Assembly (NCBI GenBank): GCA_025055175.1
Contig: JANWYT010000031.1
Span: 62,001-126,000 of the forward strand
Reading direction: 5' to 3'
Length of the DNA stretch: 64,000 nt
Source of the DNA: Anaerolineae bacterium
GTDB lineage: Bacteria > Chloroflexota > Anaerolineae > Aggregatilineales > Phototrophicaceae
The position numbers and the translations under genes are program-made. This document shows positions 41,806 through 58,359 of this stretch, in pieces. Position 1 is the stretch's first letter. Each line of letters starts with the position of its first letter. The notes under the pieces are model-generated. The model had not been told where the DNA came from and searched no databases. It saw only the letters and a list, made by a program, of their open reading frames with translations.

Positions 41806-44063
41806 ACCGCAGCAGCTTCAGCTTTCCTCTCAGCAGCAAGTTCCTGATTGCCCTGGGCTTGGTGGCGATCCTGCCCTTCGCAGCTTTCGTGCTGCTGCTG
41901 GCGAACACGCTGACGGCGCTCACTTTCAACAACGTCTCTGCCTACCTCATCGAGTCGACCGCACGCCGCCAGCAGAACATTGAGCGCAACTTCTACGAAG
42001 CCTTGCAGCTCTTCGACAACTTCGTCGGCAATTACACCAACATAGTCGCCATCAATCGCGTCCTAGAGGTCTTCAACCGCCCAGACTCCACGCCAGAGCG
42101 CCAAAACCAAGTGGTACGCGCTTTCGTCGCGCGCGCTCAACTCGACATGCTGAACAACGAACGCCAATTCTTCAACAGCCTTTGGTTGCTCTCGCCCAGA
42201 GGTGAGCTTTTGGCTAGTCAAAGCGTGAGCGGCTTCGACCTGCCGTTCAACCGCTCCGTGACCGATCAGAGACAATCAGAGATTTACACCACTTTGAATC
42301 GGCTGGCATTGCGTGCATTGCCCGATGCCAACCTCAGGCGTGCCGCCGTCGCAACGCAGCGCGACGACGGCCCTAGCATTGAAATCGGCTACGTCATCGC
42401 CAACGAGCGCAGCGTGTTGGGCTACATCGTCGCCGACATCAACATCAACAACGCCATCCTAGCCTTCTTGCGCCCGCAGGACAACCTCTTGGAGGCCTAC
42501 AGCTTCGCCGTCCTGGATGGCAACACAGCCCTGTCCTTGCCCTCTGTCAGCCGCTTGGTGTCGCTCGATAGCAACCTGGTGCGCCAAGCCGTCAGCAGCC
42601 CGCAACAAAGCGGCGTCGCCATCTACACTACCAACACCAGCCCGCCACGCCGAGTCGTTGGCTATGCTGCCCGCGCCCAACTGACGCCTGACCTTGACAT
42701 TTTGCTCGTGACAGAAGTGAGCGATCAGCTTATCAGCCGCCAGGTGACGAATTTTCTTGGCAACATCGCCTTTCCCTTCTTGCTGGGCCTGTTCGTCCTG
42801 TTGGGGCTGGCTTCTGGCCTGCTGAGCCAGATCATCGTGCCACCGCTCAATCAACTGCGCGAAGCCATCCGCGCCATGAACAGCGGGCGCTACGACGCTC
42901 CCATCCCCTCCACTCAGCGCCCCGATGAAATTGGCGGCCTGGCCAACAGCTTCGCCGACATGCGCGCCCAGGTGAGCCAGCTCATCGACACGATGACCAA
43001 CCAGCTCGATGAGCGCCAGCGTGATCTGCGCGTAACCCAGGACATCAGTCGTATCACCACTGAGCAGCGCAACCTACAAAACCTGTTGAACAACGTGGTT
43101 GACTTGATCGTCCAGAACTTCCCAAGCATTTACCACGCCCAGATTTTCCTGTTGGATGCCGAAGGAGAATACGCCGTCCTGCGCGCTAGCACCGGCGAAG
43201 CTGGCCAGAACCTGCTGGCGCGCGGCCACAAGCTGGCCGTGGGCGGCGTGAGCGTCATTGGTCAGGTGACGGAACAGGGCCAGATCGTCATCGCACGCGA
43301 TACTGCGGCCAGCAACGTCCATCGCCAGAACGAATTCTTACCCCAAACGCGCGCCGAGTTGGCCATCCCGCTCAGACTGGGCAGCAAGATCATCGGCGCG
43401 TTGGACGTACAGAGTACCCAGCGCGACAGCTTCCCGCCCGACCAAGTGACGGCCCTACAAACCCTAGCCGACCAGGTCACCATCGCCATCGAAAACGCCC
43501 GCCTCTACGAAGCCTCGCAGCGCTTGCTGGCCGATATTGAAGCCGAGAAGCGCGCGCGCACGGGCAGGGCTTGGCGCGAGTACTTGCGCACCCAGAGGGA
43601 GAGCGTCGCCAGCGTCGGCAACCCTACCGAGACGGATTTCAGCGAGCTGCGCCGCGCAGCTGTGTCCAGCGGACAGCCCGTCGTCGGCGAAGCGACGCCG
43701 CGCCGCACGATCCCCTTCGTCGTCCCCATCCGCTTGCGCGGCCAGACGTTGGGCGTGGTAGAGTATGAACTGAGCGAGCGCGACTTCAATTACAACAAAG
43801 TGCTGCTGGCGGAAGAACTAGTCAACCGCTTATCCATCAGCCTAGACAACGCCCGCCTCTTCCAAGACAGCCAGCGCGCTGCTGAACGCGAACGCCTAGT
43901 CAACGACATCTCCGCCAAGCTGACCGGCCAGACGGACATTGAAGAGATTCTGGAAATTGCCGTCCGCGAGGTCAGCCTCGCCCTGCGCACCCCACAAGTT
44001 GCCCTGCAACTGCACACTGCCAACGGCGCGTCACATCATGTGCCGCAGTCAGATGAAGGATGA
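41802..44063 (+). CDS. Periplasmic-sensor HAMP-GAF protein without output domain
   Basis: A 753-residue protein. A membrane span (about 15-40), an extracytoplasmic sensor region of about 270 residues that looks dCache-like, and a second span (about 318-347) are followed by HAMP (about 344-407, PPLNQLREAIRAMNSGRYDAP). Then come a coiled coil, a canonical GAF (about 437-567, STGEAGQNLLARGHKLA), RAWREYL, a half GAF (about 590-687, VVPIRLRGQTLGVVEYEL) and the common truncated tail (LVNDISAKLTGQTDIEEIL to VALQLH). The layout is that of a chemoreceptor or kinase front end with no effector behind it. GGGAGG precedes the ATG, which overlaps the previous stop. Confidence 0.84.
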   Translation: MNRSSFSFPLSSKFLIALGLVAILPFAAFVLLLANTLTALTFNNVSAYLIESTARRQQNIERNFYEALQLFDNFVGNYTNIVAINRVLEVFNRPDSTPERQNQVVRAFVARAQLDMLNNERQFFNSLWLLSPRGELLASQSVSGFDLPFNRSVTDQRQSEIYTTLNRLALRALPDANLRRAAVATQRDDGPSIEIGYVIANERSVLGYIVADININNAILAFLRPQDNLLEAYSFAVLDGNTALSLPSVSRLVSLDSNLVRQAVSSPQQSGVAIYTTNTSPPRRVVGYAARAQLTPDLDILLVTEVSDQLISRQVTNFLGNIAFPFLLGLFVLLGLASGLLSQIIVPPLNQLREAIRAMNSGRYDAPIPSTQRPDEIGGLANSFADMRAQVSQLIDTMTNQLDERQRDLRVTQDISRITTEQRNLQNLLNNVVDLIVQNFPSIYHAQIFLLDAEGEYAVLRASTGEAGQNLLARGHKLAVGGVSVIGQVTEQGQIVIARDTAASNVHRQNEFLPQTRAELAIPLRLGSKIIGALDVQSTQRDSFPPDQVTALQTLADQVTIAIENARLYEASQRLLADIEAEKRARTGRAWREYLRTQRESVASVGNPTETDFSELRRAAVSSGQPVVGEATPRRTIPFVVPIRLRGQTLGVVEYELSERDFNYNKVLLAEELVNRLSISLDNARLFQDSQRAAERERLVNDISAKLTGQTDIEEILEIAVREVSLALRTPQVALQLHTANGASHHVPQSDEG

Positions 44064-44068
44064 GAGTT

Positions 44069-47000
44069 ATGACCGCGAGTCGCACGCAACTTCCTCCTAG
44101 CGAACGGATTATTCGCCGTATTGCTCCTGTCTTCATCCTCTCTTTAGGCCTCGTCGTCTTGCTGGCGGTGGCCAACGTCGTGTTATCCAACGTGACGCGC
44201 GTGGAGGAAATGCACCGCAACACGCTGGATCGCGCCAACTTCGCCCTCAGCGCCCTGATGGAACGCTACTTCCAGGCGCTCCAATCCATCGCCAACGACG
44301 CTCGTCTAAACACCTTCGCCAGAGATAACGCTGATCCGCGCGCCGCCACCCAGCGCGCTCGTGACGTCATCGCCGGCGATCCTAACACCTACCAGGCCGT
44401 GCGTTACATCAGCAGCAGCGGCAGAGTCGCTCTAGAAGTGCGCAATGTGCGCGGTTTTCCCCAGATCAGCATCGGAGCTACCGTCGGTCTGCAGGCCATG
44501 AACTTCAGGAACGACCTGGCTTACCTGTCAGCGCTCAGCGGCAGCAGCGCTCGTATCTTCATCGGACGCTTCAACTTGCGGACCAGCGAGGACGATCAGC
44601 CGCTGCTCGTGCCGCGCGTCTACTTCCCGTTGTATGCCCCCATCTTCGTCGACGACAAAGTAAGCGGCGTTGTCCAAGTCGAAATCAATGCTGCCGACTT
44701 GCTGAACATCATCAACAACGCCGACGCAACTTTCATGGATGAGCTGCCAGAACGTCACCTCAGCCTGATGATTCGCCCCGATACCTACATCGCTGACAGC
44801 GGTTCGTCCAGCCTAGCCTACTTGAATAGCATAGAAGCCATCAACGGCAACATCAGCAACGACCATGAAAATGCCCATTGGCGCCAGCTCTACCGCCGCC
44901 CCGACCTGATGACAGCTTATGAAGGCGGCCTGATCCTCTCCACTCTGGGACTGAACTTTGGTGGTGCTGAGCCGACTCAATGGCGTCTCATCTTGCAAGA
45001 CAATCTGTTCGTCGCTTATTCTGGCACAACTGGCGTTGCTGCTTTGATGGTGGCTTTCGCTGGAGCAGCTGCTCTGGCGGCGGCCGTCATCACGCGGCGC
45101 GCCATCGTGCCGCTGGTCATGCCGATGGAAGAAGCCGACAAGATGGCGCTGGCCCTGGCCCAAGACGACATCGACGCTCTGGAGAAGAGCGCTGCGCTGG
45201 CCAGCACCACCCCCAGCGGCGAGAGCATGATCGAAACCATCCGCAGCCTGGCCAAACGCATCGAGGCCCTCAATGAATCGCTCAGCCAGCAGATCAACCG
45301 CCGCAACCGCGACTTGCAAGTCGCTGGGCGCATTGGCCGCGAGACGGCCGTCTTGGATGATCTGGATGTGCTGCTCAGGCGCGCCATCAACCTCATCTGC
45401 AACGAATTGGGCTTCTACCACGCCCAAGTCTTCCTATTGGATGACGTAGGGCGCGTTGCACGCCTGGCCTACAGTCGCGGTGACGCCGGCCAACAAATGC
45501 TGGCGCGCGGCCACCAGATCGAGGTCGGCACGAAGACTGTCATTGGCACAGCCACTGCTCAGCGCCGCCCCGTCATCATCAACGATACGCTGGCTCAGCA
45601 AGGCGAAGTCCCCTTCGGTTTCAATCCGCTGCTGCCAGAGACGCGCGCCGAGATGGGCCTGCCGCTCATGATCGGTGACCAGGTCATCGGTGCGCTGGAC
45701 ATTCAGAGCAAGACGCCCAACGTCTTCCTTCAAGAAGAGCTGCCTACCTTCCAACTCCTGGCCGACCAGTTGGCAATTGCCATTTACAACGCTCGCCTCA
45801 AGGCTCAGGCTGAGCGGCGCTACCAGCAGATCAACCGCCTGAATCGCCAGCTCACCCGCCAGGCCTGGGACGTGGCTCGCCGCGAAGCTCAGCTCAAGCC
45901 ACGCTACGGCGCCGAGACCCTAGGGGAAGAGGTCAGCACAGCGCCCATCACCATTCGCGGTGAGGTCATCGGCAGCTTAACCGCCGCCATCCCCGCCGCT
46001 GAACTCGGCGAAGGCGAGCGCATGATCCTCAACGCCGTCGCTGAACGCGTCGCCCTGGCCATCGAAAACGCCCGCCTATTTCAGGAGACGCAATCTGCCC
46101 TGGCAGAGACCTCCACCCTCTATCAGCTCAGTCGCACCCTCAACGAGGCGACCTCTCTCGACGACGTGCTTCAAGCTATCGTCAGCCTCATCGCCCCCGA
46201 CGCCAGCAGCGGCCAGGTCTGGCTGTTTGATGACTACCCACCTGGCAGCGACCCGGAATGGGCGCGCCTGAGCCTGGATTTGCCTTTGCAGCCGCGCCGC
46301 ACCGATCTCATGCGCGAAGACCCTCTCCTGCGCCTAGACAACTATCCGCTGCTCCAAGCTATGCGACCTGACGATGTTTTAGCTATTGAGCGCTTGGAAG
46401 ACGTCGAGCAAGACGCACGCCTGCAAATGTTCCTAGAAGGCGTAGAAGCCGAATCTGCTGTCTTTGTGCCGCTCAACATGCGTGGCATATGGCGTGGCTA
46501 TATCGTCCTGCTCTTTGGGCAACCGCGCACCTTCAGCGAACGCGAGCGTCGCATTTACAGCACCCTCATCGCTCAGGCTGGCGCCGCCATCGACAACCGC
46601 CTGCTACTGCGCCAAACAGAAGAAGCTTTGTCGCGTAACGAAAAGCTCTACGCCGCCAGCCGTATCATCAACACCGCCCTCAACCCGTCCGACCTGGTCT
46701 ACGCCGCTGTCGCCACCACAAACGATCCTTCTATGAGCTTCTGGCTGGCGCTGCTGGAACACATTGAAGGCAGCGATGATCCCTGGGACGTGAACGTCCG
46801 CCTCATTGCTCGTTCTGTCCAGGGCGCTGTTGAGGAGGCTGATGAAGTCCTCAACTTGCGCATTGATCCGAACTCAGCTGTGCGCCGCCGCGAGCCAGAG
46901 ATCGTCGTCGAACCCAATGCAGCCATAACCGACGTACCGCCTCTCGTCGAATGGATGCGTCAACAGGGCCAACGCTTCATGGCTATCTTCCCGCTCTTCA

Positions 47001-50000
47001 GCGAGAACCAGCCCATCGCCCTATTTTTCCTCACTTCGGTGTTGAACTATGAGCTTTCGTCGGAAGACTACGACGTCTATAAGGCTCTCACTGGTCAAAT
47101 GAGTACCCAAATCCAGAATTACCGCCTGTTGGCCCGCACGGAGCAAGCGCTCAATGAGACGCGCCGCTTATATGTAGCCAGCCGCGCTGTCTCTAGCGCT
47201 CAAGATATGCTGGGCATTTACGAAGCTATGGTCGGTCACCTGACCACGCCCTTCCTGCGCGGTGTGGCTGAAGGCACGGCCATCATGCTCTCGCTTTGGT
47301 TCGCCCGCCCCAGCTCGCGCCGAGACGCCCCCAACTTGGAGCTAGTCTACCAATACGTCAGCGATGATCGCCGTCCTAGCATGAGGGTTGGCGAAGTCAT
47401 CGCCCACCAAGACGCGCCCTTCAGTGCCCTCCTGGAAGAATCCGACGATAACTTCCTGCTCTACAAAGACCTGAGCGCTGTCCCTGGCTCGCTCGTCCTG
47501 CGCACAGTTTTGGGACAGGCTCGCATGAAGGCTGCCGCCATCGCCGAACTCAGCACCCGCACCCGCTGGTTCGGCGTCCTCATCTGCCATACCAATCGGC
47601 CTGACTTGCTAGACGAGAGTTACGTGCGCTTCATGCGCGCCATAGCCGATCAGGTCTCCGTCGCCCTCGAAAATCAAACTCTGCTGCGCGAAGCCGAATT
47701 CGAACGCGAGAACCTCAACCAAATTCTCTCCACCCTGCCCGCTGGCGTCATGGTACTCGACCCCGACACCTACCAGCCGATCCAGAACAACCAGCGCGCC
47801 GAAGAGCTGCTGGGCCGCTCTATCGATCAAGAGCAGCCCTTCGCCGCCAAAGCCTATCGCCTGTTCCGCAGCAGCAGCCAGAGCTTCTACCCCGACGATC
47901 AACTGCCTGTTTACCGCGCCAACCGCACTAATCAGGCTGCCTTTGGTGATGATATCGCCGTCATCCGTGAAGACGGCACACAAGTCGATCTGCTCATTAA
48001 TGCTGCTCCTATCTACGACGCCAACGGACGCAAGATGGCCATCGTCACTGCTCTCCAGGACATCAGCAATCTGCGCAGCCTAGAGAACACCCTGCAAGAG
48101 AACCTGCGCGAGACGGTGGCACTTTACGAGACGCAGCGCGCTCTGTCTGAAGCCAACACTCTAGAAGAGGTGCTGGATCGCCTCATCGAACAGCTCAGCA
48201 CGCAGCAGGTCAGCGACGCCTACATCTTACTCGCCCCAGAGACCTCCGAGGACGCCCCTATCCTGGCCCGCTACCTGTTCCGCCCTCTAGACGACACAGA
48301 GGCGCTCAGTCCTCTCCTCAGCGAGTCGCCGATCATCATAGATGACGCTGAAGCTGAAGGGCTAGTGCCGCCCTGGACGCGCCAAGCGTTGGAAAACCTC
48401 CACATCCGTTCTGTCCTCGTCGCGCCGCTGCGCCCCAAGACCCGCTCGCGCGCTATAGGCTGGATTATGTTGACCAGCGACGCGCCGCACCACTTCAATC
48501 CAGAGCAAGAGCGCGTCCTCGGCACCATCAGCGACATGGCGTCAACTGCTCTGGATAACACCTTCCTAATCGCCTCAACCCAGGCTGCTCTCCAGGAGAC
48601 TGCTGCTCTCTACAGCGCTACCGCCACCATCAGTCGCGCCCGCAACCTGGAGGAACTGCGCAGCGCCATGCAAAACGCCATTGAAGCGCTACACGCAGAC
48701 TACTACGGGACATTCCTGCTGACAGAGAGGGGCATCTCTGTGTTGTTCTCGTTTGGCACAGAGCGCCTCAGCGAGCAAGATCACCATCGCTTGGCCCTAG
48801 CCGAGCTTGGCGAGGATGGCCAGGTCTACATCTCCGATCTGAGGCGCGCCACTTCGGGCGAATTTGAGCGCGAAGTCCTCAAGATCGGCGACGTGCAGGC
48901 CGTGGCTGCCGTCAACCTGCGCGCCAAAGACTTACGAGGCGGTCGTCTGTTCGTCGGCTATCGCCAAGTCTACCGCTTCCAGGAAGGTGACATCCGCTAC
49001 TTGAACACCATCGCCGACAGCGCCTCCGTCGTCTTGGACAACATCACTCTGCTCGAACAAATTCAAAGTACGCTGCAAGAGACCAGCATCCTGTACCAAG
49101 CCTCGCGCGCTCTCACCGAGGCCAACTCGCCGGCTGATATTGTGGACGTGATCGTCAACTATCTGATCGAACCCCACATCGACCAAGTGTTCATCGCCCT
49201 GCTCAACCGCCCCACTTGGGACTCGCCATCAGCCCACGTGGAGGTCGCGGCTAGTTGGCACAGCGAAGACGAGATCAACCTCCAGGGCATTATCTTGACG
49301 GCTGAACAGTTCCCCGCCTGGAAGTACTTGGCCAGCGAATCCGTCGTGGTTATCGAAGACGTGGAAGACCCCAACCTGCCGCTGAGCGACATCGAGCGCA
49401 TCAGCATACGCAGCCTAGACACCCGCTCGGTAGTGATTGCGCCGCTGCGCGTGGTCAACCGCGCCATTGGCGCGATCTGGCTTGGTTCGCGCCAAGCTCA
49501 TGATTACACCGACCGCGACGTACGTATCTTCCAGGCCTTCGCCGAGCAAACCTCGCTATCGATGGAAGCGACGCGCCTGCTGGAACAGACAGAGCGCCGC
49601 GCTGCGCAGTTAGAGACGACCGCACAAATCTCCGAGCGCGTCGGCAGCATCCTCGATCTGGACGTGTTGCTGCCTCAGGTGGTAGAGCTGATCCGCGAGC
49701 GTTTTGGCTACGATCATGTCCAGGTATTCATGATGGATGACAACAACGAATGGGCTTTGCTGCGCGCTAGCACGGGCAGAATTGGCCAGGAACTGCTGGC
49801 CATCGGCCACAAGCTCAAGCGCGGCTCAGAGTCAGTCATCGGCCAGGTGACAGCGCGCGGCGAGCTGACCGTTGCCCTAGACACTGCCGACGCCAACGTC
49901 GTCCATAAGCCCAACCCCTACCTGCCGCTCACCCGCTCTGAGCTGGCTCTGCCGCTCAAGATCAAAGGTGAGGTCGTCGGCGCGCTCGACGTACAGTCCA

Positions 50001-52246
50001 ACCAGCCCAACGCCTTCAGCGAAGAGGACATCCAAGCGCTGACGACTCTGGCGGCCCAGATCAGCGTCGCCATCGACAACGCCCGCCTGTACGAAGAAGC
50101 CTTCGCTCGCGCCCAAGACATGTCCTTCCTGTTCGACATCACCAACGCTGCCGCCACCGCCGAGACTCTAGACAAGGCCCTGCGCGAGATTACCCAGCGC
50201 GCCATGATAGCCCTCAACGCCATCAACGCCGTCATTTATCTGCCGCAAACTTACCGCGACTACAAGGACAACACGCTCGTCATGCTCAAGCCGATGGCGC
50301 TGGCTGGCCAAGGGCAACCGCTCAGTGAATTGGCCGAGGTCGCTCTCAACGACAGCGAAAACCTCGTGGCTATCGCTGCGATTGGCCTGCAGCCAACCAA
50401 CGTGCGCAACGTCGAAAAAGAGGTGCGCTACCAACCCATCGCTAGCAACGCTCGCTCGGCCATCCTCATCCCTGTCGCCAGCGCCAACGAGCTGGTCGCC
50501 ATGCTGCTGTTAGAGTCCGCCCAACTCAACGCCTTCAGCCACGACGACCTGACGCTGTTGCTCACCCTGGCTGGCTCAGTCAGCGCGATCATCCAAAACG
50601 GCCTGCTGGTGGAGCAGCTCCAGGCCACCAATGAACGTCTGCGCGAAGTTGACCGCCTCAAGAGCCAGTTCTTGGCCAACATGAGCCATGAACTACGTAC
50701 TCCGCTCAATTCGATCATCGGCTTCAGCCGCGTCATGCTCAAGGGGATCGACGGCCCGTTGACGGAGATGCAGGAGCAAGACCTGACCACCATCTACAAC
50801 AGCGGCAACCACCTACTCAACCTCATCAACGATATCCTCGATCAGGCTAAGATCGAAGCCAACGAGATGACCCTCAAGTTCGCTTACTTCGACATCAAGG
50901 CCGTGATCGAAGGCGTGCGTTCGATCGCCATCGGCCTAATCAAAGACAAGCCGCTGGAGCTGTTCGTCGAAATTGCCCCCAACCTGCCCCAAGCCTACGG
51001 GGATGACTTCCGCACCCGCCAAGTCTTGCTCAATTTGGTGAGCAATGCCATCAAATTCACTCCTGAAGGCAGCGTGACCGTCCGCACCTACCTCACTGAA
51101 GACAGGCAGGGCCGTCCGCGCCTGCGCATTGACGTGATCGACACTGGCATAGGCATTGCCGAAAAAGACCTCCCCATTTTGTTCGAAGCCTTCCGTCAGG
51201 TCGATTCGTCGCTCACCCGCACCGTGGGCGGCACAGGCCTGGGCCTGCCTATCTCCAAATCGTTGGTGGAGCTGCAGGGCGGCGAGCTGCTGGTGTCCTC
51301 GACCGTCGGCGTCGGCTCAACCTTCAGCATCACCATCCCCACCGAGCCAGGCGCAGAGGAGATTTTGGCTCGTCGTCGCGCTCAAAGCCAAAGCCTGAGG
51401 AGCGACGGTCACAGCACTGATACCGCACTCGTACCTCGCCCTGGTGACCCACGCGAGACCCAAAGTGCGCCCAGAGTCGTGCCACCCATGCCAATTATGC
51501 CTGCCAAGCGCGATGTTCTGCTGATTGAAGACAACAAGGATATGGTTGACCAGTTCCGACGAGTCTTACAGCGCCAGGGCTTCGAAGTCCAGACTGCCGA
51601 TCATCCAGCCTACGCCGAAGCGATGGTGGGTCAGCTGCGGCCTACCGTCGTCGTGATGGACGTCAACTTCGCAGATGGTCGTGGTTGGGAGATCCTCAAG
51701 AACCTCAAGAAGCGCGACGACAGCTTCGACATTCCGATCATCGTCAACAGCCTCAGCACGGAGAGCGAACGCGCCTACCAGCTAGGGGCATACCACTTCA
51801 TCCAGCGTCCCTTCACGCCCGATAAACTGGTGGAGGTCGTCCTGCAGGCCGAGGAAGAGAACAACGTCGCTCGTATCGTCGTCATTGACGACCGTCCTGA
51901 AGACGCGCGCTTGATCGAACAACTGCTCAGCGAACGCGGCACTTATCGCGTCTTCGCCGCCAACAACGGCAAGGACGGCATTTCGATGGTGGCCCGCCGC
52001 CGCCCCAGCCTGGTCATCCTAGACCTGCGCATGCCAGAGATGGACGGCTTCGCCGTGTTGAACGAATTGCGCAGCAACCCAGAGACGGCCAAAATTCCCG
52101 TCCTGGTCGTCACTGGCGACCTCAATCTCAGCCAGGCAGAACAGGACGCCCTGGCCAATGTGCGCGTCGTCCCCAAAGCCGAAATCAGCCAGCAGGAGTA
52201 CGAACGCTTCCTGGATGACGTGCGCAAGCACCTCAACGGAAACTGA
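44069..52246 (+). CDS. Giant hybrid sensor histidine kinase with about ten GAF modules
   Basis: About 2725 residues. Order: membrane span (about 15-42), extracytoplasmic sensor (45-312), second span (315-348), HAMP (345-400), GAF (430-575), half GAF (600-675), GAFs at about 690-855, 865-1035 and 1040-1220, PAS (1220-1350), and GAFs at about 1355-1515, 1517-1678, 1680-1850, 1852-2020 and 2022-2190. HisKA follows with His2207 (ANMSHELRTPLNS), then HATPase with DTGIGIAEKD and GTGLGLPISK, then two receivers. Most GAF modules are joined by short repeated signalling helices such as ALAETSTLYQLSRTL. The first receiver has Asp (VVVMDVNFADG) but Arg in place of the conserved Lys (FIQRPF); the second is complete. 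I start at 44069, where AAGGA is 8 nt upstream; 44060 (ATGA overlap) is the alternative. Confidence 0.9.
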   Translation: MTASRTQLPPSERIIRRIAPVFILSLGLVVLLAVANVVLSNVTRVEEMHRNTLDRANFALSALMERYFQALQSIANDARLNTFARDNADPRAATQRARDVIAGDPNTYQAVRYISSSGRVALEVRNVRGFPQISIGATVGLQAMNFRNDLAYLSALSGSSARIFIGRFNLRTSEDDQPLLVPRVYFPLYAPIFVDDKVSGVVQVEINAADLLNIINNADATFMDELPERHLSLMIRPDTYIADSGSSSLAYLNSIEAINGNISNDHENAHWRQLYRRPDLMTAYEGGLILSTLGLNFGGAEPTQWRLILQDNLFVAYSGTTGVAALMVAFAGAAALAAAVITRRAIVPLVMPMEEADKMALALAQDDIDALEKSAALASTTPSGESMIETIRSLAKRIEALNESLSQQINRRNRDLQVAGRIGRETAVLDDLDVLLRRAINLICNELGFYHAQVFLLDDVGRVARLAYSRGDAGQQMLARGHQIEVGTKTVIGTATAQRRPVIINDTLAQQGEVPFGFNPLLPETRAEMGLPLMIGDQVIGALDIQSKTPNVFLQEELPTFQLLADQLAIAIYNARLKAQAERRYQQINRLNRQLTRQAWDVARREAQLKPRYGAETLGEEVSTAPITIRGEVIGSLTAAIPAAELGEGERMILNAVAERVALAIENARLFQETQSALAETSTLYQLSRTLNEATSLDDVLQAIVSLIAPDASSGQVWLFDDYPPGSDPEWARLSLDLPLQPRRTDLMREDPLLRLDNYPLLQAMRPDDVLAIERLEDVEQDARLQMFLEGVEAESAVFVPLNMRGIWRGYIVLLFGQPRTFSERERRIYSTLIAQAGAAIDNRLLLRQTEEALSRNEKLYAASRIINTALNPSDLVYAAVATTNDPSMSFWLALLEHIEGSDDPWDVNVRLIARSVQGAVEEADEVLNLRIDPNSAVRRREPEIVVEPNAAITDVPPLVEWMRQQGQRFMAIFPLFSENQPIALFFLTSVLNYELSSEDYDVYKALTGQMSTQIQNYRLLARTEQALNETRRLYVASRAVSSAQDMLGIYEAMVGHLTTPFLRGVAEGTAIMLSLWFARPSSRRDAPNLELVYQYVSDDRRPSMRVGEVIAHQDAPFSALLEESDDNFLLYKDLSAVPGSLVLRTVLGQARMKAAAIAELSTRTRWFGVLICHTNRPDLLDESYVRFMRAIADQVSVALENQTLLREAEFERENLNQILSTLPAGVMVLDPDTYQPIQNNQRAEELLGRSIDQEQPFAAKAYRLFRSSSQSFYPDDQLPVYRANRTNQAAFGDDIAVIREDGTQVDLLINAAPIYDANGRKMAIVTALQDISNLRSLENTLQENLRETVALYETQRALSEANTLEEVLDRLIEQLSTQQVSDAYILLAPETSEDAPILARYLFRPLDDTEALSPLLSESPIIIDDAEAEGLVPPWTRQALENLHIRSVLVAPLRPKTRSRAIGWIMLTSDAPHHFNPEQERVLGTISDMASTALDNTFLIASTQAALQETAALYSATATISRARNLEELRSAMQNAIEALHADYYGTFLLTERGISVLFSFGTERLSEQDHHRLALAELGEDGQVYISDLRRATSGEFEREVLKIGDVQAVAAVNLRAKDLRGGRLFVGYRQVYRFQEGDIRYLNTIADSASVVLDNITLLEQIQSTLQETSILYQASRALTEANSPADIVDVIVNYLIEPHIDQVFIALLNRPTWDSPSAHVEVAASWHSEDEINLQGIILTAEQFPAWKYLASESVVVIEDVEDPNLPLSDIERISIRSLDTRSVVIAPLRVVNRAIGAIWLGSRQAHDYTDRDVRIFQAFAEQTSLSMEATRLLEQTERRAAQLETTAQISERVGSILDLDVLLPQVVELIRERFGYDHVQVFMMDDNNEWALLRASTGRIGQELLAIGHKLKRGSESVIGQVTARGELTVALDTADANVVHKPNPYLPLTRSELALPLKIKGEVVGALDVQSNQPNAFSEEDIQALTTLAAQISVAIDNARLYEEAFARAQDMSFLFDITNAAATAETLDKALREITQRAMIALNAINAVIYLPQTYRDYKDNTLVMLKPMALAGQGQPLSELAEVALNDSENLVAIAAIGLQPTNVRNVEKEVRYQPIASNARSAILIPVASANELVAMLLLESAQLNAFSHDDLTLLLTLAGSVSAIIQNGLLVEQLQATNERLREVDRLKSQFLANMSHELRTPLNSIIGFSRVMLKGIDGPLTEMQEQDLTTIYNSGNHLLNLINDILDQAKIEANEMTLKFAYFDIKAVIEGVRSIAIGLIKDKPLELFVEIAPNLPQAYGDDFRTRQVLLNLVSNAIKFTPEGSVTVRTYLTEDRQGRPRLRIDVIDTGIGIAEKDLPILFEAFRQVDSSLTRTVGGTGLGLPISKSLVELQGGELLVSSTVGVGSTFSITIPTEPGAEEILARRRAQSQSLRSDGHSTDTALVPRPGDPRETQSAPRVVPPMPIMPAKRDVLLIEDNKDMVDQFRRVLQRQGFEVQTADHPAYAEAMVGQLRPTVVVMDVNFADGRGWEILKNLKKRDDSFDIPIIVNSLSTESERAYQLGAYHFIQRPFTPDKLVEVVLQAEEENNVARIVVIDDRPEDARLIEQLLSERGTYRVFAANNGKDGISMVARRRPSLVILDLRMPEMDGFAVLNELRSNPETAKIPVLVVTGDLNLSQAEQDALANVRVVPKAEISQQEYERFLDDVRKHLNGN

Positions 52247-52294
52247 AACTTGTTCTGGACGCCATTGCCTGCCCACTTAATCAGGAAGCCCATT

Positions 52295-53953
52295 GTGAAG
52301 CAAATCAACGTCGAATGCACCTACTGCCACACTGTGACTGATTTCAAAGGCTTTAAGGGGGAATGCCCCAGCTGCGGCGAAAAACTCGTCGAAGCACGTT
52401 ATGATTTGAGCCAAATTGACGCGGTGAGTTGGATCAACGCTGTGCGTCAGCGGCCCAACAACCTGTGGCGCTATCACGAAGTGCTGCCCATCTACGATAC
52501 GCGCAACATCGTCAGCCTGGGAGAAGGTGGCACGCCGCTCATCAAGGCCGAGCGCTTGGGCAACATGCTGGGCCTCAAGCACCTGTACATCAAAGATGAG
52601 CGGCAAGGGCCGACCGCCAGCTTCAAGGATCGTCAAGCGACAGTGGCTATTAGCGCCCTAGTGGAGATGGGCGTCGAAGAGCTAGTCGTCGCCAGCACAG
52701 GCAACGTGGCCATCGCCTATGCAGCCTACTGCGCGCGCGCTGGCATTCAGCTCTGGGCTTTCTTCCCTCACCTCGCTCCCAACGAAAAAATGCGCGAAGC
52801 AGCCATCTACGGCACAGAGATCATCAAAACCACTGGCACTTATGACCAGACGAAAGAACTGGCTGCCAACTTCGCGCGCACGAAAGGGATCGCCATCGAC
52901 AAGGGTATCAAGAGCGTGGCCGCTACCGAAGCCATGAAGACGATGGCCTACGAAATCGCTGAACAATTGGGCAACCTGCTGCACAACGGCCAGTGCTGGG
53001 TGACGCCCGACTGGTTCTTACAGAGCGTCAGCGGTGGCCTGGGGCCGATTGGCGTGGCCAAAGGCTTCCGTGAGCTGTGTGGCTTCGGCTTACTGGACAA
53101 AATGCCCGCCTTCGGCCTGATCCAGTCCAGCGGCTGCGCGCCGATGGTGGAAGCTTTTCGACGCGGGCAGCGCGTCGCCACGCCCATCGAAGAGGAGAAC
53201 ACCGTCATCGCCACCCTGGCCACTGGCAACCCAGGTCGCGCCTACGAAGTCTTGTTCGATTACGTCCAAGAGAACGGTGGCGACTTCATCGGGTGCAGCG
53301 ACGAGGAGGCTTTTAACGCCATCCGCGTCCTGGCTCGCTACGAAGGCCTGTCGGTTGAGCCAGCCACAGGCGTCACCTTTGCCGGCCTGTTCAAGCTGGC
53401 CCAGATGGGCCGTATCAAGCCCGACGAGGTGGTGGTGGTCAACGCCAGCGGCCACACCATGCCCGTCGAGAAGCGCATTCTAGGAGATCAGTGGCAGAAG
53501 ATCGTCGATATGTCGACTGCGCCCAGAGCGCCTTCTGTCCCAACCGACAATCTGATCGAAGCTGTCGCTCGGATCAAAGAGGGCTTGCGCCGCGTCGTCG
53601 TCGTTGAAGACAACCCGGCGGCTGCTCGCTTGATGAGCCGTATCTTAGAGAGCCGCGAGAACTGCGAGGTCTATCTGGCCACCAACGGCGCTAAGGGCCT
53701 CAGCACCATCCGCGACATCTACCCCGACCTAGTGATTACTGACCTGATGATGCCCGATGTGGACGGCTTCACCCTGATTAAGACTATGAAGAGCGATCCT
53801 GCTCTGGCCAGGATTCCCATCGTCGTCGTCACCGCCAAAGAGCTGACTGTACGCGAGAAAGCCTACCTGGACGAAACTACTGACCTGCTGCTACAAAAAG
53901 GTTCTGTGATCGATGATGGCTTCATCGAAGCCTTGATCCAACGCCTCGACTGA
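52295..53953 (+). CDS. thrC: Threonine synthase fused to a C-terminal response-regulator receiver domain
   Basis: A 552-residue fusion. Residues 1 to about 410 are a PLP-dependent threonine synthase, converting O-phosphohomoserine to threonine. An N-terminal zinc ribbon uses Cys8, Cys11, Cys24 and Cys27. The PLP Lys is Lys111 in TASFKDRQA, and VVASTGNVAIAYAAY and ATGNPGRAYE are substrate/PLP blocks. After a linker (about 410-432) comes a complete receiver domain (about 433-552) with Glu438-Asp439, phospho-acceptor Asp483 (VITDLMMPDVDGF), Thr513 and Lys535. The reading frame is continuous. The start is GTG at 52295 with AGGA 10 nt upstream; the TTG at 52250 lies just 3 nt after the kinase stop. 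The gene lies 48 bp after the giant kinase. Phospho-control of the enzyme is plausible but unproven. Confidence 0.92.
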   Translation: MKQINVECTYCHTVTDFKGFKGECPSCGEKLVEARYDLSQIDAVSWINAVRQRPNNLWRYHEVLPIYDTRNIVSLGEGGTPLIKAERLGNMLGLKHLYIKDERQGPTASFKDRQATVAISALVEMGVEELVVASTGNVAIAYAAYCARAGIQLWAFFPHLAPNEKMREAAIYGTEIIKTTGTYDQTKELAANFARTKGIAIDKGIKSVAATEAMKTMAYEIAEQLGNLLHNGQCWVTPDWFLQSVSGGLGPIGVAKGFRELCGFGLLDKMPAFGLIQSSGCAPMVEAFRRGQRVATPIEEENTVIATLATGNPGRAYEVLFDYVQENGGDFIGCSDEEAFNAIRVLARYEGLSVEPATGVTFAGLFKLAQMGRIKPDEVVVVNASGHTMPVEKRILGDQWQKIVDMSTAPRAPSVPTDNLIEAVARIKEGLRRVVVVEDNPAAARLMSRILESRENCEVYLATNGAKGLSTIRDIYPDLVITDLMMPDVDGFTLIKTMKSDPALARIPIVVVTAKELTVREKAYLDETTDLLLQKGSVIDDGFIEALIQRLD

Positions 53954-54032
53954 GACGGCCTACTAAGCCGAACACTATCCTTTTCTGGCTTGCGGTCTGC
54001 GGGCTGCAAGAGATCAGAGAAGTTGACCAACC

Positions 54033-54449
54033 TCAGGCGCTCTGCTCGTTCTTGCGGCGCGTGGCAGGGTAGATGAGCCGCCGCGCTTCCTCCAGGGTCG
54101 CCACAAAGAAGGTATCGTGCGCTGCCTGCTTGTCGATTCTGGTGGCCGCTTCGAAGATAGACTTCATCATGCCGCTCATGCCCACAAAGGCGATCGGCCC
54201 TCTCTTGCCACCACCAAGCTGAGTGATACGGGTGAACTGAGCTAAGCCCTCGCGGTTGAAGACCGAGCCGCCAGGCAGTTGCAGCCCGCCACGTACGTCC
54301 ACAATCGCGCCAAAGACGCGCTGGCGCTGCTGGCTGATCGTCTTGGCGGTATGCAGCACCGCGAACAGCTCGTCCCACGTCCACGATCCGCTAACTTCCA
54401 TCAGCATCACCGTTTCGGCGTCGTCATCCCAATAAAGTTCAATGCCCAT
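54033..54449 (-). CDS. Small STAS/SpoIIAA-like protein, function unknown
   Basis: A 138-residue soluble protein. An alternating strand-helix pattern (AETVMLMEVSGSWTWDELFAVLHTA, then FGAIVDVRGG, then RGPIAFVGMSGMMKSIFEAA) is like small STAS-related domains, but no conserved phospho-serine site is evident. Similar small proteins occur beside two-component genes in this phylum, as far as I recall, but I cannot name a family. It is encoded on the opposite strand, between the threonine synthase fusion and the REC-kinase. The ribosome-binding site AGGA lies very close to the ATG, so the start is not certain. Confidence 0.6.
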   Translation of the reverse strand: MGIELYWDDDAETVMLMEVSGSWTWDELFAVLHTAKTISQQRQRVFGAIVDVRGGLQLPGGSVFNREGLAQFTRITQLGGGKRGPIAFVGMSGMMKSIFEAATRIDKQAAHDTFFVATLEEARRLIYPATRRKNEQSA

Positions 54450-54719: not shown

Positions 54720-55826
54720 ATGAAGATTCTACTCATTGAGGACGAGACAGCCTTGCGCGAGAACGTGAGCGAGATGCTGGAGCTGGAGGGCTTCGAAGTC
54801 TACAGCGCTGTCGATGGGCGCGACGGTGTAGAGATAGCTTTGCGCGTCCATCCCGATCTGATCGTCTGCGACATTGCTATGCCAGAGATGGATGGCTATC
54901 AAGTCCTCAAGACTCTGCGCGCTTATGAGGCGACGCTGGCCACCCCCTTCATCTTCCTGACAGCGCGCACGGATCGCTCCGATGTGCGTCAGGGCATGCA
55001 ACTCGGTGCAGACGACTACATCACCAAGCCGTTCAGCCATAAAGAGCTGATGGAGGCTATCCATGCTCGCCTGACCCGCCGTCAAGCTTTAGACGAACAA
55101 GCCAAACGTGATGTAGAGCGTATCAAGCGTGAACTCACCCAGATGGTGAGCCACGAGCTACGGACGCCGCTGGTGTCGATCACGATGGTACAAGAATATA
55201 TTAGCTCTCAGCTTGACCAACTCAGTCGCGAAGAACTGGTTGACCTGCTCAACATCTTGCGCGGAGGCAGCCAGCGCCTCAGCCATCTGGTAGAGCAGAT
55301 GGTCATGTTTACCCAGCTCCAGACCGGCATACTCGATCGCGAGCGCGTCCACAAAAACGCCGTCCTCACCGACTCCTGGACGCTAGTCGTGGCTGGGATC
55401 AACCTGGGACGGCGCTTCGCCTATCGCAACCCCAATCTGTCCATTCAAGCTCAGGAATATGCCCCAGGAGCGCGAGTCCTGTGTCACCCACCAACCATCT
55501 CTCATGCCATTGGTGAACTCATCGCGAATGCTCTGGACTTCTCGGCGGAGGGACAGACGATCAATGTTTATCAGTGGCTGGACGGTCAAACGGTCTGGGT
55601 GCAGGTAGTCGATCAGGGAGCAGGCATGCCTGGTGAACGCCTAGAGGACGCGCTCAAGCCTTTCGTCCAGATCAACCGCGAGCGACAAGAACAGCAAGGC
55701 ATGGGCTTGGGCCTGCCCCTGGCCAAGATGGTCGTCGAAGCACACGGCGGCCAACTCTATCTAGAGTCTGCATTAGGCCAGGGAACGAAGGCCAGCCTGA
55801 GCTTGCCCCTGGCCGAACAGACCTAG
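54720..55826 (+). CDS. Receiver-first hybrid histidine kinase (REC-HisKA-HATPase)
   Basis: A 368-residue soluble protein. An N-terminal receiver (residues 1-120) has Glu7-Asp8, Asp51 (IVCDIAMPEMDGY), Thr81 and Lys103. After a short helix comes HisKA with His145 (QMVSHELRTPL) and a HATPase domain (about 250-365, VDQGAGMPGERLEDALKPF and GMGLGLPLAKM). Receiver-before-kinase proteins usually relay a signal from one kinase into another, so a phosphate from the giant kinase or its receivers could regulate this protein. That is inference from architecture. Its stop TAG shares a palindromic CTAG with the stop of the convergent nuclease gene. Confidence 0.9.
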   Translation: MKILLIEDETALRENVSEMLELEGFEVYSAVDGRDGVEIALRVHPDLIVCDIAMPEMDGYQVLKTLRAYEATLATPFIFLTARTDRSDVRQGMQLGADDYITKPFSHKELMEAIHARLTRRQALDEQAKRDVERIKRELTQMVSHELRTPLVSITMVQEYISSQLDQLSREELVDLLNILRGGSQRLSHLVEQMVMFTQLQTGILDRERVHKNAVLTDSWTLVVAGINLGRRFAYRNPNLSIQAQEYAPGARVLCHPPTISHAIGELIANALDFSAEGQTINVYQWLDGQTVWVQVVDQGAGMPGERLEDALKPFVQINRERQEQQGMGLGLPLAKMVVEAHGGQLYLESALGQGTKASLSLPLAEQT

Positions 55827-56338
55827 CGGCGTTCGCTGCCATCTCTGAAGCTGCCCGTCGGATGGCAGCCCAGGCCTCGGCGGGCGGCTTCCCGTTCCAG
55901 GGCCACGAAGTCGCGCCAATGGCGGTCGTCTGGCTCATACAGGACGGCTTCGGCGTAGCCGCTGGCCACTAGTTCGCGATTGACGAAGACCGAGCCGACG
56001 TAGACGTAACGCAGCAGACGGTCGAAGCGGTCAGTATCGCTCTGGTCGCGGACGAGAGTCACAGTCTGGCCCTCCACCAGGGCGCGATTGGCTTCCAGCG
56101 CTTCTTGATAGCAGACTTCATCCGACTCTGGGGTGTTCACGCCGACGTAACGCACACGCACGCGCTGGCCGCCAAGCTCCACTTCAATCGTGTCGCCGTC
56201 GATGACGCGGCGCACGCGCGCCGTCTCTCCCGACGGTGATGGGCCTACCACTCCTGTTGACACAGGCATACCTGCGTTCAAATCCAAGCCAGAGCAGGCA
56301 GCGAGGAGGGCCGCCAAACAAAGCAATGACAGTCTCAT
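55823..56338 (-). CDS. Thermonuclease-family (SNase-like) lipoprotein
   Basis: A 171-residue protein with a lipoprotein signal: hydrophobic core and LAAC with the lipid-bearing Cys15. Residues of about 39-160 are a staphylococcal-nuclease fold: VIDGDTIEVEL with Asp48 and Asp50, RYVGVNTPE with Arg63 and Glu71, and DRFDRLLRYVYV with the second catalytic Arg. The usual VDTPE is VNTPE, so one calcium ligand is Asn, a variant common in this family. It would cleave DNA or RNA at the cell surface. The start overlaps the preceding gene (ATGA), and the gene is the last of the leftward envelope operon. Confidence 0.88.
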   Translation of the reverse strand: MRLSLLCLAALLAACSGLDLNAGMPVSTGVVGPSPSGETARVRRVIDGDTIEVELGGQRVRVRYVGVNTPESDEVCYQEALEANRALVEGQTVTLVRDQSDTDRFDRLLRYVYVGSVFVNRELVASGYAEAVLYEPDDRHWRDFVALEREAARRGLGCHPTGSFRDGSERR

Positions 56339-57234
56339 GAGCGGCTGCGGGCCGCGCGGGCCAGGACAATGACGCCCATGAGGCCGAAGGCCATCAGCAT
56401 AAACAAGCCAGGATTGCTCGCCAGATCATCCAACAGACCTGTGTCAGGCAAAGCAGGGCCGCCTATGGCAGGCGTCGCGATGGGCGTGCCGCGAATTGTA
56501 CCGCCGATGGGGGTGGGCGTGGGCAAGCCTAGTCCAGCCGGGGTGGGCGTGGGCTGACTGAAGAGCTGGGCCAGGCGCGTGGCCGTCGCTTGCACATCTG
56601 CGATGGATAGGCCACCAGTGACGCGCTCTGGCGTAGGGGTGGCTTCTTCATCCTGCGCCGCAGCGAGCGCCGTTTGGGTGGCCTGGAGCGGCTGCAAAGC
56701 AGCGGCAGTCTGTAGAGCCTGCTGCGTGCTTGCGATGGCCTGCTGCGTGGCGAGGACGAAGACCGCCTGGGCAGTGAAGGTAGCGCCAATAGCCTGGGCA
56801 GTGGCGGTGATGTCTACCGTCGCAGTGGGCGAAGGCGAGGGCGTAGGCGAAGCAGCCAGTGCAGTACTCGTCAGCACAGCAGCAGCAGTGTTGGTAGCAT
56901 CGACGGCGGCGGCTTGGGCCAGCGTCGTAGCGTTGACCTCTGCGATGGCTGTGCGCGTCGGATCAAGCGGATCGACTCCACCGCTGGTCAGGGCGAAGAT
57001 CAGCACGCCAAAGCCCACCAGCAACACCACGATGAGCAGGACAGCTAGGATGATGAAACCTTTGCTCGGCCCTTGACTTTGTTCAATCGTCGGCTCTCGC
57101 TCATCGTCGAGGTCTTCGCTGAAAATGTCCTGGCCGAAGTCGATGTCGCTGTCTGGATCAACATCGCGGCTGTCCCCGAAGAAATCGTCATCGTCATCGC
57201 GCATAAAATCGCGCAGATCATCGTCTTTGGACAT
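56335..57234 (-). CDS. Two-span envelope protein with LPDTG motif near the C terminus
   Basis: A 299-residue protein. The N-terminal 55 residues are strongly acidic (many Asp/Glu), then a membrane span at about 58-82. A Thr/Ala- and Gln-rich extracytoplasmic stretch follows, ending in Pro/Thr/Gly repeats. At residue 262 LPDTG is followed by a second hydrophobic segment (about 276-292) and a basic end (ARAARSRS), the order of a sortase sorting signal. With the first span, the predicted topology is N inside, middle outside. No sortase gene is in the window. Function unknown. It overlaps the nuclease gene by 4 bp and follows the 57289 gene by 54 bp. Confidence 0.72.
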   Translation of the reverse strand: MSKDDDLRDFMRDDDDDFFGDSRDVDPDSDIDFGQDIFSEDLDDEREPTIEQSQGPSKGFIILAVLLIVVLLVGFGVLIFALTSGGVDPLDPTRTAIAEVNATTLAQAAAVDATNTAAAVLTSTALAASPTPSPSPTATVDITATAQAIGATFTAQAVFVLATQQAIASTQQALQTAAALQPLQATQTALAAAQDEEATPTPERVTGGLSIADVQATATRLAQLFSQPTPTPAGLGLPTPTPIGGTIRGTPIATPAIGGPALPDTGLLDDLASNPGLFMLMAFGLMGVIVLARAARSRS

Positions 57235-57288: not shown

Positions 57289-58359
57289 CTATCTGCCACT
57301 GACTTCTAAATTCGCTAACGGGATTTGAACGACTTCCCCCAAGCCCAGATCGACGGTGGCACAGGCCACCCGCAGCCCGTTAGGCAGAGTCATCAGGCCA
57401 CGCGGCAGATCGACGACGCGCCCCTGTTGACCGTAATACGGCTCGCGGACGACGCGCACCTTGCTGTTGCGGCGCAGCACAAGGTGCAGATCGACGGCTT
57501 GGGGCGCGTCGCCAGCGCGCGGGATGACCAACTCTGGACGGCGAGCGGCGCTGCGACGCGGCTTGTAGGCGTCGATGATCGCTTGGTAGCTCTCGAACTC
57601 GCGCAGCAGGGCCAGGGCCTGTTCGCTCATCGTCAAATTGCCGAAGCCCTCCGTCAGCAAGACAGCCATCTCCATCGCCATCACGCGCGGGATCAAGTTG
57701 GCGCTCATGCTAGGAGCAATCAGGCCAGCGAAGTTGCGTTCTTCGGCGATGTACAGGGCGCGTTCGCTGATAGGGCGCGTGCTGACGACAATTTCGTTCC
57801 TGTAAGCCTGATCGAGCGAGTCGGGAGACAGAACTTCCACGCCGTCGGCAGGCTCAAGGCGCAAGTAAGCAATGCGCCGCTGATCGTTGCCCCACACTCC
57901 CTGCAAAATCGCCCCGCTGGTGCTGATGCTCAGGCCCTCGTTCCCGTAGATAGCGCTCACTGTGCCACGCACGCCGGCTTCCAACTCAAAGACCTCCGGA
58001 GCAGCCTGCATGATGATCCGCCCGCCGCCTACGTAGACGATCAAGCCGTCAATCGGGGCGAAGATGCGCTTGCCGCGTTTCGGATCGCGACCAGCAATGG
58101 CCGTGCCTTTCTCCACAACGACGCGCTCTTTGACCAGCAACAACTTGCTCAGTTCGGCAGGGTCGTTCAGGCGCAACTCCTGGGCAGCTTCGATGATGAC
58201 GTGCCGACTGGGGACGAAGCCGCGCAGTACCTTATCGCGCACGTCCACTGCGCGCCCCTCGGTCATCAGCACGACGCCAATCGCCTCAGCGGGCAGGCGC
58301 GTCTCGCGCTCAAAGTGGCCCTGAGACGTGATGATCCGTTGCTCTGGGAAGTAGCTCAT
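57289..58359 (-). CDS. Conserved-context beta-rich protein of unknown function
   Basis: A 356-residue soluble protein that I do not recognise. RIFAPIDGLIVYVGGGRIIMQ (about residues 105-125) resembles a lipoyl/barrel-sandwich type strand pair. PYYGQQGRVVDLPRG near residue 310 resembles a KOW-type loop. RNFAGLIAPSMSANLIPR and FESYQAIIDAYKPRRS lie between. It overlaps the MutL-like gene by 4 bp, so the two are co-translated and probably work together, perhaps in an envelope or scaffold role suggested by the membrane proteins around them. No catalytic motif was seen. Confidence 0.65.
   Translation of the reverse strand: MSYFPEQRIITSQGHFERETRLPAEAIGVVLMTEGRAVDVRDKVLRGFVPSRHVIIEAAQELRLNDPAELSKLLLVKERVVVEKGTAIAGRDPKRGKRIFAPIDGLIVYVGGGRIIMQAAPEVFELEAGVRGTVSAIYGNEGLSISTSGAILQGVWGNDQRRIAYLRLEPADGVEVLSPDSLDQAYRNEIVVSTRPISERALYIAEERNFAGLIAPSMSANLIPRVMAMEMAVLLTEGFGNLTMSEQALALLREFESYQAIIDAYKPRRSAARRPELVIPRAGDAPQAVDLHLVLRRNSKVRVVREPYYGQQGRVVDLPRGLMTLPNGLRVACATVDLGLGEVVQIPLANLEVSGR

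Follow-up and report, generated by a model that had tools for sequence, protein, structure and literature searches.

Almost all two-component systems exert their effect by way of transcription or second messengers. The locus described here raises the question of what a response-regulator receiver does on an enzyme that resembles threonine synthase. The window, i. e. the whole stretch of DNA analysed (64,000 nucleotides from an Anaerolineae bacterium, assembly GCA_025055175.1, contig JANWYT010000031.1), contains a single unbroken frame that joins a zinc ribbon and a PLP fold-type II domain to an intact receiver. The features of this gene are:

52283-52288, + strand: Shine-Dalgarno-like AGGAAG, 6 nt 5' of the GTG start (from the sequence)
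52295-53953, + strand: ThrC-like PLP enzyme/receiver fusion, 552 aa (frame, Pfam, alignment)
52316-52375, + strand: zinc-ribbon cysteines C8, C11, C24 and C27, invariant in 87/87 fusions
52511-53452, + strand: PLP fold-type II (PALP) domain, residues 73-386 (PF00291, E 2e-68; model closest to solved threonine synthases)
52625-52627, + strand: Lys111, the lysine for the PLP Schiff base, corresponding to K61 in the T. thermophilus threonine synthase (87/87)
52901-52939, + strand: remodelled motif of the substrate pocket, KGIKSVAATEAMK (residues 203-215; NSxNxxRxEGQK in threonine synthases)
53471-53587, + strand: interdomain linker, residues 393-431, model confidence mostly low
53588-53950, + strand: receiver domain (REC), residues 432-552 (PF00072, Response_reg, E 5e-18 at 434-535)
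53741-53743, + strand: Asp483, predicted phosphorylation site (87/87)

A preliminary description of this DNA had claimed one uninterrupted frame with a zinc ribbon, the PLP lysine Lys111 and a receiver with every catalytic residue. All of this was borne out: the four cysteines, K111 and the receiver residues E438/D439, D483, T513 and K535 are present and conserved. It had also raised the question of a chimera at 53500-53620. An assembly chimera or frameshift is ruled out, as the same fusion is carried by all 87 aligned sequences, which come from many separate assemblies and are 45-76% identical. The GTG start lies 48 nt past the stop of the upstream kinase gene and no promoter-like site was found in 52100-54100, an absence that gives weak evidence of co-transcription.

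The alignment shows which parts of the protein are under constraint. The zinc cysteines, Lys111, Asn137 of the STGN loop, Asp439, Asp483 and Lys535 do not vary in any of the 87 fusions, and the glycine loop G247/G248/G250 is invariant too. Receiver position 513 is always Thr (71) or Ser (16) and position 438 is Glu (69) or Asp (18); the acidic pair, the phospho-Asp, the T/S and the Lys of a receiver are thus all found. Several residues special to the family, among them R103, Q114, S246 and P251, never vary in the fusions. Conservation is highest in the PLP domain (mean pairwise identity 66%), followed by the receiver (53%) and the linker (40%). The AlphaFold model of the fusion has a mean pLDDT of 83.5; the comparison with solved structures covers the enzyme half, and the receiver is assigned from its sequence.

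The taxonomic spread of the architecture, which the preliminary description had proposed to check, turned out to be wide among relatives. A pattern scan of 84,980 species genomes, which is also what covers occurrence beyond Chloroflexota, found the fusion at more than 70 loci, labelled almost without exception as Anaerolineae or Chloroflexi. Among 301 genomes sampled from the phylum, those with the fusion comprise 26 of the 38 others in the window's class and seven in other classes, one of them Herpetosiphon aurantiacus 114-95T. Two contigs carry other labels (L028, Bacteroidetes; L039, Pleurocapsa). These bins are probably mislabelled or contaminated, since their fusions are Anaerolineae-like (63-65% identity).

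Is the enzyme half a threonine synthase? Threonine synthases (ThrC; TIGR00260; PDB 1v7c, 2d1f, 6cgq, 2c2b) are the closest solved structures to the model (VIA Z 37-44, 24-34% identity). They share with it the PLP fold-type II, the catalytic lysine in SFKDR, the ASTGN loop and a Ser or Thr at the PLP ring nitrogen; position 385 is S/T in 28/28 fusions compared. The differences concern the substrate side. In the T. thermophilus enzyme (1v7c), T88, N154, S155, R160 and N188 are reportedly the ligands of the substrate phosphate; these numbers agree exactly with the residue letters. The four solved threonine synthases and the canonical ThrC of the window's own genome keep all five, whereas 0 of 28 fusions keep any of them, having V/A at T88, mostly R/K at N154, G at S155, mostly A at R160 and G at N188. 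The conserved substrate motif NSxNxxRxEGQKT is lost and the GNxGN loop has become SGGxGP. Hence the term full threonine synthase, as used in the preliminary description, was an overstatement: the fold and the PLP site are complete, but the residues for the substrate phosphate are gone. In fold the enzyme half is threonine-synthase-like; its PLP site is complete and its substrate pocket remodelled. Such a pocket could still take an anionic substrate, because the replacement residues include basic ones. Degeneration to a pseudoenzyme is disfavoured by the invariant catalytic residues.

The window protein scores 163-165 bits with TIGR00260 against a cut-off of 167.1; the other fusions score 125-189, some of them 168-189, and as several thus pass narrowly this cut-off does not decide. 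The best NCBIfam match is PRK08197 (NF006050; 275 bits, curated cut-off 303), a type of 'threonine synthase' that has the same zinc ribbon and PALP domain but stands alone. Its closest-matching members examined, unlike the fusions, have an arginine at the position of R160. Another relative of threonine synthase, cysteate synthase CapA2 (PDB 9k3c; VIA Z 42, 24% identity), catalyzes a different reaction; it has no receiver, and the fusion scores 113 with TIGR03844 against a cut-off of 325. A branch with 100/100 support and a stem of 2.3 changes per site sets the 28 fusions compared apart in the tree; the nearest relative of this clade is uncertain because of long branches.

Canonical ThrC is encoded elsewhere in the window's genome (C33), so the fusion is not the organism's sole housekeeping threonine synthase. 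A DNA pattern for the canonical threonine-synthase motif was found in 19 of 30 fusion-bearing genomes. Matches above the TIGR00260 cut-off occur in 11 of 12 genomes searched (the exception is G125), some of the 11 passing only through PRK08197-like stand-alone copies or the fusion itself. Separate ThrC copies are thus present in most fusion-bearing genomes tested.

The fusion could nevertheless be a regulated isozyme that converts phosphohomoserine to threonine and holds the phosphate by the new basic residues R/K203 and R/K206, with the transporter described below exporting threonine or homoserine like RhtA. The nearest structures, the TIGR00260 scores just below or above the cut-off and the frequency of basic residues at position 203 would fit this. 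We consider it unlikely, given the replacement of all five T. thermophilus pocket residues in every one of the 28 fusions, the presence of canonical ThrC and the separate, long-stemmed clade.

Which kinase might act on the receiver is suggested by the neighbouring genes:

44060-52246, + strand: sensor kinase, 2728 aa, with GAF repeats, a weak PAS match, HisKA, HATPase_c and two C-terminal receivers (Pfam)
54720-55826, + strand: REC-HisKA-HATPase_c protein downstream of the fusion, with an architecture like that of the second kinase of the conserved gene set

Of the 85 loci with enough flank, 68 have a gene for a GAF-rich hybrid kinase (HK) immediately upstream of the fusion, and in 41 of 83 a second HK gene comes right after it. 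The gene order kinase, fusion, REC-kinase, EamA recurs in loci of very different degrees of divergence. This position of the HK and the invariant receiver chemistry lend good support to a functional link between the fusion and its neighbouring kinase. The upstream HK is a candidate cognate kinase by genetic linkage, as distinct from phosphotransfer. The earlier idea of a kinase-regulated threonine synthase thus finds support in its first part, the kinase link, but not in its second, in view of the ThrC at C33 and the lost motif. Compared with the other receivers of its locus, that of the fusion is most often closest to the C-terminal one in the large upstream kinase (46 of 86 loci; the mean identity of same-locus best matches is 37%), which is compatible with an origin by duplication from that kinase.

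Some observations on the surroundings may be added. In the 44060-52246 kinase, which has many GAF domains, the first C-terminal receiver seems to be without the usual lysine (YHFIQRP) and the second has it. Between the fusion and the next kinase lies a 138-aa ORF (54033-54449, - strand) with no Pfam or NCBIfam match. Further downstream, a MutL/GlmL-family protein (PF13941; 58356-60407, - strand) adjoins two proteins, at 57289-58359 and 56335-57234, both without a Pfam match.

The fourth member of the set, an EamA-family transporter, is found downstream of the fusion in 43 of 75 loci. Within the class, its subfamily is present in 25 of 26 genomes with the fusion versus 0 of 12 without it (Fisher p 5e-9, a value that ignores relatedness), and both states, fusion and EamA present or absent, occur inside one family (f5). 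The two genes lie at most 400 bp apart on the same strand in 21 of 25 genomes. The window's genome has the set in two places: kinase and fusion lie in the window, whereas the REC-HK and EamA form an intact pair at C4:170.3-172.8 kb, 51% and 67% identical, respectively, to the proteins of the L001 operon. The closer match to the second kinase of the set is G000:C4:171508-172752 and not 54720-55826. Divergent (B-type) paralogues and Herpetosiphon have no adjacent EamA. As judged from gene content and order, the A-type fusion, to which the window's belongs, is inherited together with the kinase and a specific transporter within the class.

Because the enzyme and EamA are the only non-signaling proteins of the conserved set, they appear to be its natural output, and the most economical interpretation is that the signal passes from the kinase through the receiver to the enzyme, while EamA transports product or substrate. 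The gene product would then be a metabolic-enzyme response regulator. Asp483 of its receiver would accept the phosphate, most likely from the GAF-rich hybrid kinase directly upstream, and this would alter the activity or assembly of the attached PLP domain, which may work on an amino-acid-like substrate other than, or besides, O-phosphohomoserine. The dedicated EamA transporter would carry the product or the substrate across the membrane, the direction being a matter of interpretation. We favor this phosphorelay-controlled PLP enzyme tentatively, giving it a little less than an even chance. The B-type paralogues and Herpetosiphon, which have no EamA beside the fusion, and the fusions that pass the TIGR00260 cut-off speak against it. 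A more specific version, in which the hybrid kinase directly switches the synthesis of an amino-acid-derived compound that the dedicated EamA exports, as a module widespread in Anaerolineae, is rather doubtful. Such a compound could possibly be a secreted signal or a protective metabolite, made on demand without a transcription step.

Conservation of the PLP lysine is no proof of turnover, because PLP-binding regulatory domains such as those of MocR/GabR keep it as well. By analogy to the aminotransferase-like domain of these regulators, information could flow in the opposite direction, from metabolite to kinase: the PLP domain would bind an amino acid as aldimine without net turnover and report its level to the phosphorelay. 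The frequent position of the fusion between two kinases, its lack of a DNA-binding output, the remodelled pocket and the existence of paralogues with two tandem receivers (PALP-REC-REC) would all suit a sensor. However, the full set of residues for PLP chemistry is invariant in what is the most conserved part of the protein, and close co-inheritance with a transporter is better suited to an enzyme product. We regard the sensor as somewhat unlikely, though as the likeliest of the alternatives.

The window's genome itself contains such a PALP-REC-REC paralogue, 47% identical to the fusion (C14). At G000:C14:50558-52159 (L087 6070-8418, - strand) this two-receiver fusion is followed by genes that encode a single-domain receiver, a GNAT acetyltransferase and an astacin-like peptidase. 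L070, L092 and L093 likewise have, near the fusion, a gene from the cluster to which the GNAT gene belongs. B-type fusions of other genomes often have a stand-alone PRK08197-like threonine-synthase-like gene nearby, as in L088, L089, L090, L091, L105 and L096. In G016, G061, G069, G077, G125 and G241 the B-type fusion is closely followed by such a stand-alone enzyme. This arrangement in several genomes would be expected if the fused domain were an inactive or weakly active paralogue that controls the stand-alone enzyme in mixed dimers. Yet for most fusions of the window's type no such neighbor was seen, and the active-site residues are fully conserved, making this the least probable explanation, and a very improbable one. 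The favored reading remains an enzyme under phosphorelay control.

The fusion is not without parallel. Receivers on standard metabolic enzymes recur with narrow distributions in archaea (Galperin and colleagues, PMC5847659), e. g. the glycosyltransferase-REC protein MTH_548, which has in common with the fusion a receiver on a metabolic enzyme and a restricted distribution. Thus the claim that no precedent exists was too broad, receiver-enzyme fusions being a recognized rare class; for the specific architecture, a threonine-synthase-like enzyme with a receiver, the searchable literature yielded no description. MTH_548-type response regulators carry a different enzyme, whereas the fusion occurs in much of a class and has kinase and transporter partners that are conserved. 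It therefore belongs to a recognized kind, within which its enzyme type, not found in the literature searched, its broad occurrence and its constant partners set it apart.

In much of a bacterial class, and in the cultured predator Herpetosiphon aurantiacus as well, an amino-acid-type PLP enzyme has retained a receiver. The results suggest a different function for those genes of these genomes that are likely annotated as 'threonine synthase'. As the fusion is co-inherited with a kinase and a transporter across one bacterial group, a signaling pathway probably controls a metabolic enzyme directly here, and with these partners direct phosphorelay control of metabolism becomes testable.
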